DNA of 64,000 nucleotides from an uncultured Clostridia bacterium (GTDB lineage: Bacteria > Bacillota > Clostridia > Oscillospirales > CAG-272), in the NCBI GenBank assembly GCA_947624995.1, contig CANQMS010000008.1, forward strand, positions 1 through 64,000, given 5' to 3'. The translations under genes were made by a program, and so were the position numbers. Of the stretch, positions 2,335 to 22,581 are shown one piece after another (the stretch's first letter is position 1; each line of letters begins with the position of its first letter). The notes beneath the pieces are model-generated. The model worked only from the letters and a program-made list of their open reading frames with translations, searched no databases and had not been told where the DNA came from.

Positions 2335-5300
2335 TTACTTCGTTGTGACAAAATCGTACGCGCCGACAGTGTACTCTCTGCCGTCAACGACGACCTTGAC
2401 TGCGAATCCGTTATAGTTGAGGATGAAGCTGACTCCGTTTTCGTAGGAAACGAGAACGATCGAACCGTCCGTTACCGCGTACTTGGAGACTTCTTCAACG
2501 GGCTCAACGGGAGGCTCGGTGCCTTCACCGGTTCCGGGAGCCGTTCCCTCACCTGTTCCGGGCGCTGTGCCTTCGCCGGTGCCGGGAGCTGTCCCCTCAC
2601 CTGTTCCGGGCGCTGTGCCTTCGCCGGTGCCGGGAGCCGTACCTTCGCCCGTTGCGGGCTCTTCATCTGTCTCGACAGAGTAGGTCTTGAGCGTCGACTC
2701 AACGGCTGCCGCAACGGCATCCGCAATAGCCTTGACGCTGTCGTTCACGGAGATTATCGTTGCCGCGTTGGCTGCAACAGCAGCCGCGGTGTCCTCTTCA
2801 GCCGTGATCTCAACCTTGTGAGCCGCGCTTTCCGCAAGCTCTGCCGCATCTTCTGCCGCGGTCGCAACTGCCTGTGCAGCGCGCTCCGCCTTGCTGTACA
2901 CGGATGTGTACGACGTCTCTTTGATGACTGCGTCGTAAGCTTCCTGAGGTTCCTCAGCCGCTGTCTCCGCAGCGTCGAGAGCTTCCTCGGCGGCGTCAAC
3001 GGCAGCCTGTGCCTCTTCTACGGCAGCTTCAAGATCAGCCGTATCCTGTTCGTCGTTGTCCTCTGCCTCGTCGAGCGCATCCTCCGCGGCTTCAAGTGCC
3101 TCTTCGGCTGCTGCAAGCGCTTCCTCAGCGGCAGTTACTGCTGCAAGCGCCTCATCGAGCGGTCCCTTAACGGCGTCGACCTGCGGTTTGAGAGCCGCAA
3201 GCTCCGCGAGAGTCTCGTTGAACTCGTCTCTCTTCGTTGTCGCTGTTTCAAGCAGCTTGTTGATCTTTTCGATCATCGACGTTGTGTCCTTGACGGCGTC
3301 CGCGATCTCCTTTTCGAGAGCCTCGCGCTCCATGCGTTCCTTGAGCCTCTGTGCCGCGGCTTCCTGCTCCGCAAGACGCTCAGCGAGCTCCTTCTCGCGC
3401 TTTGCGGCATCGAGCGCGGCATCATTGTCCGCCTTTAACTCGTCCGCATCCGGGATGCGCTCACCCTCGAGGAACTCGTGATTCGTTATGATCGAGGTCT
3501 GGAGATCCTTGAGAATGTCGTTTACCGTGTTGTAGTATTCGACAAGATCGTCGAACCAGATATCATATCTGATCGAGTAGTACTTGTTGAGTAAGTAATC
3601 CTGCTTAAGCTCCTCAACATTCTGATATGCGAAGATGAAGTTCAGCGCCGATCCGCTCTCAATGCAGCGGAGCAGTGCAGACTCTACGTCGCCCTCCTCA
3701 TTGAGAGGCGTGCCGGCGATATTCACATATCCGTGGAGGACTATGCCGTTGAACGGGACGGAGTACGATGCGTTGAAGAAGCGGCTGCTCTCAAACTTCA
3801 TGTTGACGATGTGGTCAACATACTTGTATGTAAATGCGTTGCCGGCGTCTATCATGACGTCGTACTTATCCGCGATCTTTTCGAGAAGGTCTACCGTGAG
3901 CTTCTTCGCGTCTTCGCGGTTGTAAGGATCGTCCTCGTCAAAGTCGGAGTTCAGATCCGAACCGAGCGTCGAGACCGAAATGCCTGTCGCATCAAACTTT
4001 CCGTAGATCTCTGCGAAGTGATCGTAGAAATATTCGAATACGGACGGGGAAACCGCGATCTCAAAGTTTCTCGTGAAGTTCTGCGATGTCGCGTCGTAGT
4101 ATCTCTTGCTCGTATAGCGGTCGTCGATCGTCTTTACGGCGTGTTCCTTATACGAGAATCCGTCGAACCATTTGTCGCCCGGAGCGTACGCGAAGTCGAA
4201 GTCGGGATATACGCCGAATCCGTTGTCTTTTGCGTACTTGATCAGCGCACGGAAGCCGTCGTCGCCTCCGACCGCCTTTTCCCACTTGAGGTTGTACGGG
4301 ATCGTCGGATCAGACAGACCGCCGTTCGCAAACCCGGTGAGCTTGAAGTTGACGTTGTCGATCCCTGCCTCTTTGAGCTGGTCGTACATCGTCATTATGT
4401 TTTCAAACGTGGTGAGAGGAGTGTCGACCGTGACCGGTATCGACATGATCCTTTCGGACGTCTGCATCGTGCCGAGAGCCTCAATGTAGAGCGGCATATT
4501 CTCTTTGACGTCCTTTTCGGTCAGTCTCGTGATGATGCCGGTCTTTTCGAGGTAATCGCGGTACGCAGCCGCCATGCCGTAGTACGATGTCGGGTAGTAG
4601 TCCTTGAGACCCGCTCTCTCGGCGATCTCCTCGCCGTCGAGCATCACGTACTTGACGCGGTAGCTTTCAACATACTTTCTCGGAGAGACGACCGTCCACG
4701 TTGCGTTCGCGGCTTCGGCTCTGCTCTCACGGAGATTATACGTATCGAACGGTCTCGGCTCGAGCCTCGGGTAAACGTACGCATAATTGTGAACGCCGCC
4801 GCCGCTCGTGTACTGGATGGAGGCGAGTGACTCACCCTCAGTGATGTAAGAGACAAAGCCCTTTTCGTTCTTTATCTTCTCTTCTTCCGTAACCGCGGGA
4901 ACAACGACCTCTTCGCCCGTCTCGGGATCTGTCGTCGTCGTTTCGGGAGTGATGACGTTCTCTACCGTCATTTCACCGAGATCCGTGACCGCGCCCCATA
5001 CGGGGAATCTCGTGTCCTCCTGCGGATTCGTGACCGAATCCATGAGCTGCTGATATGCGAAGTTGTAGCCGTACATCGTGCAGGAACGGTTCCATCTCGT
5101 GCCCGCAAGCTTATCTGCCTCGATCAGAGCGCCCGAGCCGTCCGGAATGAACGTGTAGCCGGGGTTATCGCTGCTTATCGCGCCCATGTAAGGGAGCAGA
5201 TCAATGTACTGGAGGATGTACGCCGTATCGTCGTAGCGGATACCGTTCGCGGGGAGACGAACCTCGAGCCCGTCCTCGTCGATCGTGTATTCAAGCGCCA

Positions 5301-15807: not shown

Positions 15808-16770
15808 TTACAGCATCGCGGCGCCGATGGCGCCCGCGCCGCCGCCGAGCTCGGCACAGCAGATGCGCGTGTAACGCTCCGGAGACTGGCGCTTGTTGTA
15901 CATCTCGGCGTACACGCGCTCGCGCAGGGGCGCGAGCAAGCGCTCGCCTTCATTGCAGATCCCGCCGCCTATGGCGAGCACCTCCGGCTGGAATATGTTT
16001 ATGTAATTCGTCAGCGCACATGAAAGATACGCGATATAGCTGTCAAGGACTTCCTTCGCCGCCCCGTCCCCGGCGTCCGCGGCGCGAAACGCGGTTCGCG
16101 CGGACACCTTGCCCTCAGCCGCCGCAAGCTCCGGCATGACGGTCTTCTTGCCGCTCGCCTCACATTCCGCGATCTTTGCCTTCGTCATTCTCTCGAGCGC
16201 CTTTGCCGAGCAGTAGCGCTCGGCGCAGCCGCGCCGACCGCATCCGCATGCCTCGCCGTCATACACGATGACGGTGTGACCGAACTCGCCGCCCGCGCGG
16301 TTTTTCCCGGTCAATATCTTCCCGTCGCTTATGTAGCCGCCGCCGATCCCGGTCCCGATCGTTATCATCAGAAAATCGCGCGCACCGGCGCCCGCGCCCG
16401 CGCGGTACTCGCCGAGCGCCGCCGCGTCCGCGTCGTTCGCGGTCTTGATACGCGATATATCGACTCCCACAGCCTCCGACAGCATCCGCGCGACGTTTGT
16501 CCCGAGCAGCGGCAGATTAGCGGAATATTCTACGATCCCGCGCTCCCCGTCAACGGTGCCGGGGCACGCGACGCCGAGCGTCCCGATCTCCGAGGCGTCC
16601 GCCCCGGCCTCGTTCAAAAGCGAGCGAACCGCCGCCGCGAGCGAGCCGATGACGGACTCCTCCGAGCGCGTGTCCGTCTTTTCCTTATATTTATAAAGTA
16701 CCTCGCCGGACGCGGAGATGATGCCGGCTGCCGTATTCGTCCCGCCGAGGTCGATCCCGAGATTAAACAT
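15808..16770 (-). CDS. ROK family protein (glucokinase-like)
   Basis: GIDLGGTNTAAGI; CGCGRRGCAERYCSA zinc motif; start taken at MFNLGIDLGG. Confidence 0.92.
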   Translation of the reverse strand: MFNLGIDLGGTNTAAGIISASGEVLYKYKEKTDTRSEESVIGSLAAAVRSLLNEAGADASEIGTLGVACPGTVDGERGIVEYSANLPLLGTNVARMLSEAVGVDISRIKTANDADAAALGEYRAGAGAGARDFLMITIGTGIGGGYISDGKILTGKNRAGGEFGHTVIVYDGEACGCGRRGCAERYCSAKALERMTKAKIAECEASGKKTVMPELAAAEGKVSARTAFRAADAGDGAAKEVLDSYIAYLSCALTNYINIFQPEVLAIGGGICNEGERLLAPLRERVYAEMYNKRQSPERYTRICCAELGGGAGAIGAAML

Positions 16771-17194
16771 CGGTCTGCTCCCCGAGCGCGGACGGCAGGT
16801 GCTCGAGTCCCCACGCCTGCATCTCATTCAGTATCGGCAGCAGCGACAGCCCCGTTTCGGTCAGGGAATATTCGACCCTGACCGGCATTTCCGCGTACTG
16901 GCGGCGCAGGACGAGCCCGTCTCCCTCAAGCTCGCGCAGGGAATTTGCGAGCATCGTGTTCGTTATGAACGGGACGCGGCGCTTCAGTTCGTTATACCTT
17001 GTCGACTCCGAGCCCGACAGCGCGCAGAGTATCGGTATCTTCCATTTCCCGCCGATCACGTCGAGCACCGCCGTCAGCGGGCAGGGTGACAGCTCCGAGC
17101 AGGAGCAGGCGTTTTTTGCGCACGCCTCGCACGACACGCAGTCTCCGGCGCACGGAGCTGCGTTTTCTTCTTTCAGCGTCGTTTTTTCAGTCAT
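16763..17194 (-). CDS. HxlR family transcriptional regulator with Cys-rich N-terminal extension
   Basis: CPLTAVLDVIGGKWKIPIL...RYNELKRRVPFITNTMLANSLRELEGDGLV; N-terminal C-x3-C-x2-C-x2-C-x4-C-x-C. Confidence 0.92.
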   Translation of the reverse strand: MTEKTTLKEENAAPCAGDCVSCEACAKNACSCSELSPCPLTAVLDVIGGKWKIPILCALSGSESTRYNELKRRVPFITNTMLANSLRELEGDGLVLRRQYAEMPVRVEYSLTETGLSLLPILNEMQAWGLEHLPSALGEQTDV

Positions 17195-17227
17195 AAAAAT
17201 AATACCTTATCACAAAAAACTGCGTAC

Positions 17228-17266
17228 TTGATATTTTTTTCTTACGTGGTACAATAATGATACCAC
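17228..17266 (+). promoter_or_regulatory. Promoter of cysteine desulfurase gene with inverted-repeat operator over the -10
   Basis: TTGATA-N16-TACAAT; GTGGTA-N9-TACCAC at 17246-17266. Confidence 0.65.
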
Positions 17267-17341
17267 AGAAAACTGTAATATTCAACCGTATTTTTGAGAA
17301 ATAATTATCTTACGGAAAGACGGAAATAAACGGAGGGTATC

Positions 17342-18532
17342 TTGGAAGAGGTCACAAAGGAAAGATTCGTATACGCGGACAACGCGGCGACAACGCCCGT
17401 TGCGCCCGAGGTCGCGGAGGCGATGACGCCGTATTTCACCGCGGTATGGGGGAACCCGTCGAGCATGTACTCAAAGGGGCGCGAAGCGCGCAAGGCGCTC
17501 GACTCCGCACGCGAGCGCGCGTCAAAGGTCCTCGGCTGCGCACCGAACGAGCTCTACTTCACGTCGGGCGGCACCGAGGCAGACAACTGGGCGCTGAAGG
17601 GCGGCGCGCGCTTCATGCGCGAAAAGCAAGGCAGGACGCACGTCATCACCTCGACGATAGAACACCCGGCGGTCCTGCGCTCCTGTGAGGCGCTCGAGCG
17701 CGAGGGGTTCCGCGTCAGCCGCGTTAACGTCTGCAAAAACGGCATCCTCGACATGGACGAGCTGCGCCGCACTCTCGACGGGGACACGGCGATAGTCGCC
17801 GTCATGTACGCAAACAACGAGATCGGCACGATACAGCCGATAGAGGAGATATCAAAGCTCGCTCACGAGGCGGGTGCGCTGATGTTTACGGATGCCGTTC
17901 AGGCGGTCGGTTCGATCCCCGTCGACGTCAATGCTCTCGGCGTCGACATGCTCTCGCTGTCCGGGCACAAGCTCGGCGCCCCGAAGGGCATCGGCGCGCT
18001 CTATATGCGCCGCGGGCTCAAGATAAACAAATATATCGACGGCGGCGGTCAGGAGCGTGGGATGCGCTCCGGCACCGAAAATCTCCCCTATATCGCGGGA
18101 CTTGCCGAGGCGCTCGAACTTGCCGCCTCCCGTATGGACGACATGGAGCGCATACGCCGTATGCGCGACAGGCTCGCCGACTATATCCTCAAAAACATCC
18201 CGCACACGATATATAACGGCGACCCGAGCCGCCGCCTGCCGGGCAACCTCAACATCAGCTTTGAGTACATCGAGGGCGAGAGCCTGCTTTTGCTCCTCGA
18301 CATGGCGGGCATCTGTATCTCGACAGGCTCCGCCTGCTCGTCAAATTCGCTCGAACCGTCCCACGTGCTGCTCGCCCTCGGGCTCCCCGCCGAAAAGGCG
18401 CACGGCTCGATGAGAGTTTCCCTCTCCCACGGCAACACGGACGAGGACGTAGACTATATAATCGAAAAGCTGCCGGGCATCGTTTCAAGGCTCCGCTCGA
18501 TGAGCCCGATATACCCCGGCGACGATAAATAA
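17342..18532 (+). CDS. iscS: Cysteine desulfurase (NifS/IscS family)
   Basis: YADNAATTPVAPEV, SLSGHKLGAPKGIGALY, STGSACSSNSLEPSHV; TTG start with GGAGGG upstream. Confidence 0.93.
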   Translation: MEEVTKERFVYADNAATTPVAPEVAEAMTPYFTAVWGNPSSMYSKGREARKALDSARERASKVLGCAPNELYFTSGGTEADNWALKGGARFMREKQGRTHVITSTIEHPAVLRSCEALEREGFRVSRVNVCKNGILDMDELRRTLDGDTAIVAVMYANNEIGTIQPIEEISKLAHEAGALMFTDAVQAVGSIPVDVNALGVDMLSLSGHKLGAPKGIGALYMRRGLKINKYIDGGGQERGMRSGTENLPYIAGLAEALELAASRMDDMERIRRMRDRLADYILKNIPHTIYNGDPSRRLPGNLNISFEYIEGESLLLLLDMAGICISTGSACSSNSLEPSHVLLALGLPAEKAHGSMRVSLSHGNTDEDVDYIIEKLPGIVSRLRSMSPIYPGDDK

Positions 18533-18543
18533 GGAGGTTACGT

Positions 18544-18978
18544 ATGCAGTACAGCGAAAAAGTAATGGACCACTTCGCTCACCCGAGAAATGTCGGTGAG
18601 ATAGAGAACGCGGACGGCGTCGGCACCGTCGGCAACGCCACCTGCGGCGACATAATGCAGATGTTTTTAAAGATAGAGAACGACGTCATCGTCGACGTCA
18701 AGTTCAAGACGTTCGGCTGCGGCGCCGCTATCGCCACCTCGTCGATGGCGACGGAACTCATCAAGGGGCACACCGTAAAAGAGGCGCTCGAGCTGACGAA
18801 CAAGGCGGTCGTCGAGGCGCTCGACGGGCTCCCGCCGATAAAGATCCACTGCTCCGTGCTCGCGGAAGAGGCGGTCCGGGCGGCGCTCGCCGACTACTAC
18901 ACAAAGATCGGCAGAGAGATAGACTTCGAGGTCCCCGAAAAAGACGAGGAAGCCTGCCACATCATCCCCGAGGAATAA
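18544..18978 (+). CDS. iscU: Fe-S cluster scaffold protein IscU/NifU N-terminal type
   Basis: GNATCGDIMQMFLKIE...FKTFGCGAAIATSSMATELIKG...KIHCSVLAEEAVRAAL. Confidence 0.95.
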   Translation: MQYSEKVMDHFAHPRNVGEIENADGVGTVGNATCGDIMQMFLKIENDVIVDVKFKTFGCGAAIATSSMATELIKGHTVKEALELTNKAVVEALDGLPPIKIHCSVLAEEAVRAALADYYTKIGREIDFEVPEKDEEACHIIPEE

Positions 18979-18984
18979 AGCACA

Positions 18985-19018
18985 GTCGGCAGCCGATGTG
19001 GCTGCCGACATTTTTTGA
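18985..19018 (+). terminator. Rho-independent terminator after iscU
   Basis: GTCGGCAGCC-gatgt-GGCTGCCGAC ATTTTTT. Confidence 0.85.
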
Positions 19019-22457: not shown

Positions 22458-22470
22458 ACAAGGCGGAAAA

Positions 22471-22562
22471 CAGGGGCGCTGCCGCAAGGCGGCTGAGACG
22501 GCGGATAATGCTCCGCCGGACCCGATCACCTGATTTGGGCAATGCCAACGTAGGGAGTTTTG
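22471..22562 (+). promoter_or_regulatory. TPP riboswitch (THI element)
   Basis: caggggcgct...GGCTGAGAcggcgg..ccgccgGACCCgatCACCTGATttgggcaATGCCAACGtagggag. Confidence 0.96.
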
Positions 22563-22581
22563 CTGTAAGCGATTTTCTTTT

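Follow-up and report, generated by a model that had tools for sequence, protein, structure and literature searches.

How iscS and iscU are controlled in a Clostridia bacterium that keeps no IscR-type gene beside them is the question raised by this locus. Fe-S assembly is classically set by IscR, a protein of the Rrf2 family. In the stretch of DNA analysed here (the window, 64,000 nucleotides from an uncultured gut Clostridia bacterium), a cysteine-rich regulator of another family faces the two genes. We asked whether this regulator governs them, from which site, and what its cysteines may sense.

Organization of the locus

An earlier reading made from the sequence alone (the sequence-only reading) had described the regulator gene, hxlR, as divergent from cysteine desulfurase and IscU genes. 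This arrangement was borne out, with NifS-type and clostridial NifU/IscU-type matches both above their curated cut-offs. The features are as follows.

15808-16770, minus strand: ROK-family glucokinase-like gene (TIGR00744, 214 bits, below cut-off)
16763-17194, minus strand: hxlR, HxlR-family winged-helix regulator with a seven-cysteine N-terminus (PF01638; PDB fold matches)
17081-17152, minus strand: cysteine cluster, residues 15-38 (all seven cysteines invariant in seven genus orthologues)
17220-17232, minus strand: ATCAAGTACGCAG, putative operator for HxlR that overlaps the iscS -35 (conservation in relatives)
17228-17255, plus strand: iscS promoter, TTGATA-N16-TACAAT with extended -10 (consensus scan)
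17246-17266, no strand assigned: inverted repeat GTGGTA-N9-TACCAC, mostly two face-to-face extended -10 boxes (sequence, consensus scan, shuffles)
17257-17285, minus strand: hxlR promoter, TTGAAT-N17-TATCAT with extended -10 (consensus scan)
17342-18532, plus strand: iscS/nifS cysteine desulfurase (TIGR03402, 548 bits, cut-off 530.75)
18544-18978, plus strand: iscU/nifU scaffold, clostridial NifU/IscU type (TIGR03419, 212 bits, cut-off 187.9)
18985-19009, plus strand: terminator-like hairpin after iscU (11-pair stem with a T run)

The start of the ROK gene overlaps the hxlR stop by 8 bases (16763-16770), and the same gene order was found in relatives. Because of this overlap the two genes are probably co-transcribed as operon partners. 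The TTCAAC block of the hxlR promoter was conserved within the genus. Neither a riboswitch nor a T-box was found in the isc leader. Elsewhere in the window, a TPP riboswitch (RF00059, 64.5 bits, 22462-22573) precedes transporter-like and ThiM-like genes.

The HxlR protein and its cysteine tail

The product of hxlR has 143 amino acids and matched PF01638 with an E-value of 8.1e-29 (bit score 99.8, cut-off 20.8). HxlR was the sole Pfam domain found in the protein, the Rrf2 domain PF02082 being absent, and it has no homology to Rrf2/IscR. AlphaFold2 modelled the winged helix with confidence (pLDDT above 90), whereas tail residues 1-40, modelled without ligand, were of low confidence (pLDDT 44-66). 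The best PDB matches of the model included HxlR, HypR, YtcD, YodB, QsrR and a Clostridioides difficile HxlR protein; among them, HxlR, HypR, YodB and QsrR gave target-normalised TM scores of 0.77-0.91.

The tail (PCAGDCVSCEACAKNACSCSELSPCP) carries cysteines at positions 15, 19, 22, 25, 30, 32 and 38. C38, ahead of the domain, is the conserved N-terminal cysteine of the HxlR/DUF24 family, and the six others (C15-C32) precede it. The sequence-only reading had given these six extra cysteines, within 18 residues before the CP cysteine, as C-x3-C-x2-C-x2-C-x4-C-x-C, and the spacing proved exact.

An HxlR orthologue (82-100% identity) was found in 7 of the 11 genus genomes sampled, some of which are near-copies, so that about five distinct HxlR sequences are represented. 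Each orthologue is divergent from iscS; iscU followed at 90-100% identity in six of the seven genomes, while in the seventh the contig ends within iscS. The cysteine cluster and the isc linkage thus occurred together in all seven. Just eight of the first 32 residues are the same in every one of these orthologues, and they include each of the six extra cysteines (hypergeometric chance 3e-5), so that, judged by conservation, the cluster is more than a product of chance. A sample of 394 genomes from the order yielded no relative of comparable strength (1e-36) outside the genus, and the seven-cysteine form is known from one genus only.

A candidate operator between hxlR and iscS

The sequence-only reading had pointed to the intergenic inverted repeat as the site of regulation. 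The repeat is indeed present and overlaps the iscS -10. However, it is not the best operator in the spacer. When the 147-base AT-rich spacer was shuffled 1000 times, a perfect repeat with arms of 6 bases arose in 479 cases, so the repeat alone is not beyond chance, and its conservation is largely due to its being made of two promoters. Furthermore, two relatives that lack HxlR have this palindrome ahead of an unrelated gene. We therefore rejected it as the main evidence for an operator.

A second element, ATCAAGTACGCAG, was derived by comparing the spacers of distant HxlR relatives. It was identical in all seven genus loci, with a single exact copy in each of these genomes, and identical also in UBA1305, another Clostridia MAG and five more genomes from the class or phylum. 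The identical copies mostly lie 35-67 bases before the hxlR start. At a threshold of at least 11 of 13 bases, it was present in 27 of 49 multi-cysteine HxlR loci against 2 of 980 dinucleotide shuffles, and in 23 of 78 single-cysteine HxlR loci against 3 of 1560, counts that are somewhat favourable as they were made in the same loci that yielded the element. On the opposite strand of these loci there was no match at this threshold. Identity of all 13 bases in separate lineages goes far beyond what the shuffles gave. Being identical in seven relatives, recurrent in other lineages, unique per genome and placed on the iscS -35, ATCAAGTACGCAG appears a better operator candidate than the palindrome. 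YodB, a member of the HxlR family, prefers TACT-N7-AGTA (PMC8063818), and the AGTA of this site is also part of ATCAAGTACGCAG. A similar copy at 4230-4242, with one mismatch and within coding sequence, was put down to chance.

In the two relatives without HxlR, G010 (L066, 1501-1521) and G002 (L067, 1501-1521), the palindrome of the hxlR-iscS spacer recurs as GTGGTATGATTATRATACCAY ahead of a folate-transporter-like membrane gene. A different, perfect palindrome, GTGATATCATNATGATATCAC, has been kept in the interval that separates genes for a TrkH-like potassium transporter and an SPFH-type protein (L082, L083 and L085, near 1501-1521; G000 C3:12150, G001 and G004), and it is possibly the operator of another regulator.

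Two arrangements of the isc genes within the genus

Two genus members without hxlR, G002 and G010, carry rrf2-iscS-iscU, with mnmA next in the one read that far. This is the type of isc cluster described in Clostridium perfringens, in which an Rrf2 gene heads iscS, iscU and trmU (PMC2940859). The hxlR-iscSU form (seven genomes) and the rrf2-iscSU-mnmA form (two genomes) never overlapped within the genus, and no isc-linked rrf2 was found in the HxlR-bearing genomes. The second iscS of G002 and G010 and the iscS of G003 share the gene surroundings of the window locus (a solute-binding-type gene and, where read, the ROK gene), without hxlR and without iscU. The proposal that HxlR is a non-homologous analogue of IscR was supported in part, as to family and as to position, HxlR occurring at isc where two relatives have rrf2-iscS-iscU-mnmA.

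A search of the window genome for Rrf2/IscR copies, which the sequence-only reading had suggested, returned two three-cysteine Rrf2 proteins, but neither of them beside isc. Their genes adjoin cysK and an O-acetylhomoserine sulfhydrylase-like gene (sulfur assimilation). In G006, which is 95% complete and keeps hxlR-iscSU, there was no Rrf2 match at 1e-10. The rrf2 promoters of the genus have in common a box, CCTATYAAATAT, just upstream of the -10 (L001, L002, L191, L193, L194), which is a candidate Rrf2 operator. This box was not found in the iscS promoter of the window, where the best match was 8 of 12.

Proposed mechanism and alternatives

Taken together, the conserved linkage, the element and its position make control of iscSU and of hxlR itself by HxlR, from 17220-17232, the most economical reading, and we think it likely. 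An HxlR dimer would bind ATCAAGTACGCAG at this site. Since the site covers the iscS -35 and the early hxlR transcript, one bound dimer could shut both divergent promoters; the same placement, on the iscS -35 and the hxlR leader, argues for repression and not activation. The seven-cysteine tail would then be the sensor; as long as supply suffices it would most likely carry a labile Fe-S cluster, or else another metal bound by thiolates. If the cofactor were lost for lack of iron or sulfur, or through oxygen or nitrosative stress, the DNA would be released and iscSU turned on. That the cofactor is Fe-S and that the switch works in this sense is our inference; a cluster or metal is favoured by the seven invariant, close-set cysteines beside Fe-S assembly genes. 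The tail probably senses a cluster or a redox state. The whole model, a local autoregulated repressor of iscS-iscU with an Fe-S- or metal-binding tail as sensor, seems to us about evenly balanced.

How the regulator came to this place and what its tail holds allow several readings. In one, a member of a redox-sensing HxlR clade lengthened its cysteine tail, became an Fe-S sensor and replaced an Rrf2/IscR-type regulator at isc; we would give this reading somewhat less than an even chance. The window protein may work like IscR, though it is not an IscR. The same gene control could also be exerted through a cofactor-free thiol switch, in which disulfides, persulfides or adducts of the tail alter DNA binding when the cell is stressed by oxidants, electrophiles or sulfide, in the manner of HypR, YodB and QsrR. 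The known chemistry of the family is thiol-based, C38 is its usual reactive cysteine, and YodB uses Cys6 and Cys101 in this manner (PMC8063818); two-cysteine relatives beside trxA-trxB fit as well. However, seven invariant close-set cysteines (CxxC, CxxC, CxC) exceed the need of a two-cysteine switch, and the target here is Fe-S assembly and not detoxification, which leaves the thiol switch rather unlikely.

Motifs of the CxxC and CxC types are suited to binding Zn or Cu(I). The tail, which has both motifs and no defined structure in the ligand-free model, might bind structural Zn or Cu or sense such a metal, control of iscSU reflecting metal damage to Fe-S clusters. But no metal efflux or uptake gene was adjacent in the genus loci read, and we regard this as improbable. 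Slightly more improbable is that the genome's own Rrf2 proteins run iscSU in trans, with HxlR acting on nothing but its own gene and the ROK kinase gene after it. The two three-cysteine Rrf2 proteins, the overlap of hxlR with the ROK gene and the C. perfringens precedent would fit it. Against it stand G006, which retains hxlR-iscSU with no Rrf2 match at the threshold above, the conserved ATCAAGTACGCAG element on the iscS -35, and the missing CCTATYAAATAT box, on which ground control of iscS by these Rrf2 proteins was rejected.

If Fe-S-sensing replacement is true, this would be the first Fe-S sensor of the HxlR family, a non-homologous IscR, and a family whose known chemistry is that of thiols would gain Fe-S or metal sensing. 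A second, unrelated cysteine-sensor regulator of isc, with close relatives keeping the Rrf2 form, would also offer a natural experiment in regulator replacement.

Comparison with known regulators

The HxlR/DUF24 regulators HxlR, HypR, YodB, QsrR, YtcD and YdzF have the same domain, fold and N-terminal cysteine as the window protein and are likewise often divergent from their target gene. However, the members known so far sense through one or few cysteines and lack a cluster-bearing tail, and their targets are detoxification or formaldehyde genes, whereas the window gene adjoins iscSU. A search of the open-access literature returned no paper tying the HxlR family to isc or an Fe-S cofactor. IscR and the clostridial Rrf2 of the CPE1786 type are also cysteine-bearing regulators beside iscSU (PMC2940859; L046 in the genus). 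They differ in that they belong to PF02082 and head the operon, while the window protein belongs to PF01638 and is divergent, and in their cysteine pattern and DNA element.

Multi-cysteine HxlR proteins in other anaerobes

Wider HxlR proteins came from a scan of genome contigs and from genomes sampled across the class and the phylum. In 22 wider relatives C32 and C38 are invariant. Their tails have only two to five cysteines, yet the ATCAAGTACGCAG element is common to them, so that most of the cluster is dispensable for such a regulator. The multi-cysteine HxlR group of anaerobes appears to be undescribed in the open-access literature searched, and the shared DNA element makes its targets directly testable.

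In one set, the tail has the pattern C-x7/8-CGLKK and the gene adjoins thioredoxin and thioredoxin-reductase-like genes, a ferredoxin gene with C_GCAxxG protein genes, or a prismane/Hcp gene. A tree built from 119 domains placed the genus clade with this set, on weak support (90/69) and few columns. In G332, from another family of the class, an HxlR gene of this set heads hxlR-iscS-iscU-mnmA-rrf2, with trxA divergent (L259, 384-4569); a cluster with both regulator types is a possible intermediate in the exchange of regulators.

In the other set (C-x3-CPC-x3-CP), most of the genes diverge from one for a small PNPOx-like flavoprotein (Acetobacterium, Clostridium luticellarii, Synergistaceae), and other HxlR genes with CPC-x3-CP adjoin radical-SAM or RnfC genes. 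The multi-cysteine HxlR proteins of Acetobacterium, C. luticellarii, Eubacterium aggregans and Synergistaceae are about 50-60% identical to that of the window, share C30, C32 and C38 with it and, in most cases, have nearly the same 13-mer. They differ in usually having four or five cysteines and in mostly being divergent from the flavoprotein gene and not from iscSU. This flavoprotein, of about 102 amino acids, was repeatedly divergent from the multi-cysteine HxlR of acetogens and others (L092-L103, L145-L150, L203-L206), and the conserved pair is apparently undescribed. A DUF1638-like gene sometimes accompanies it.
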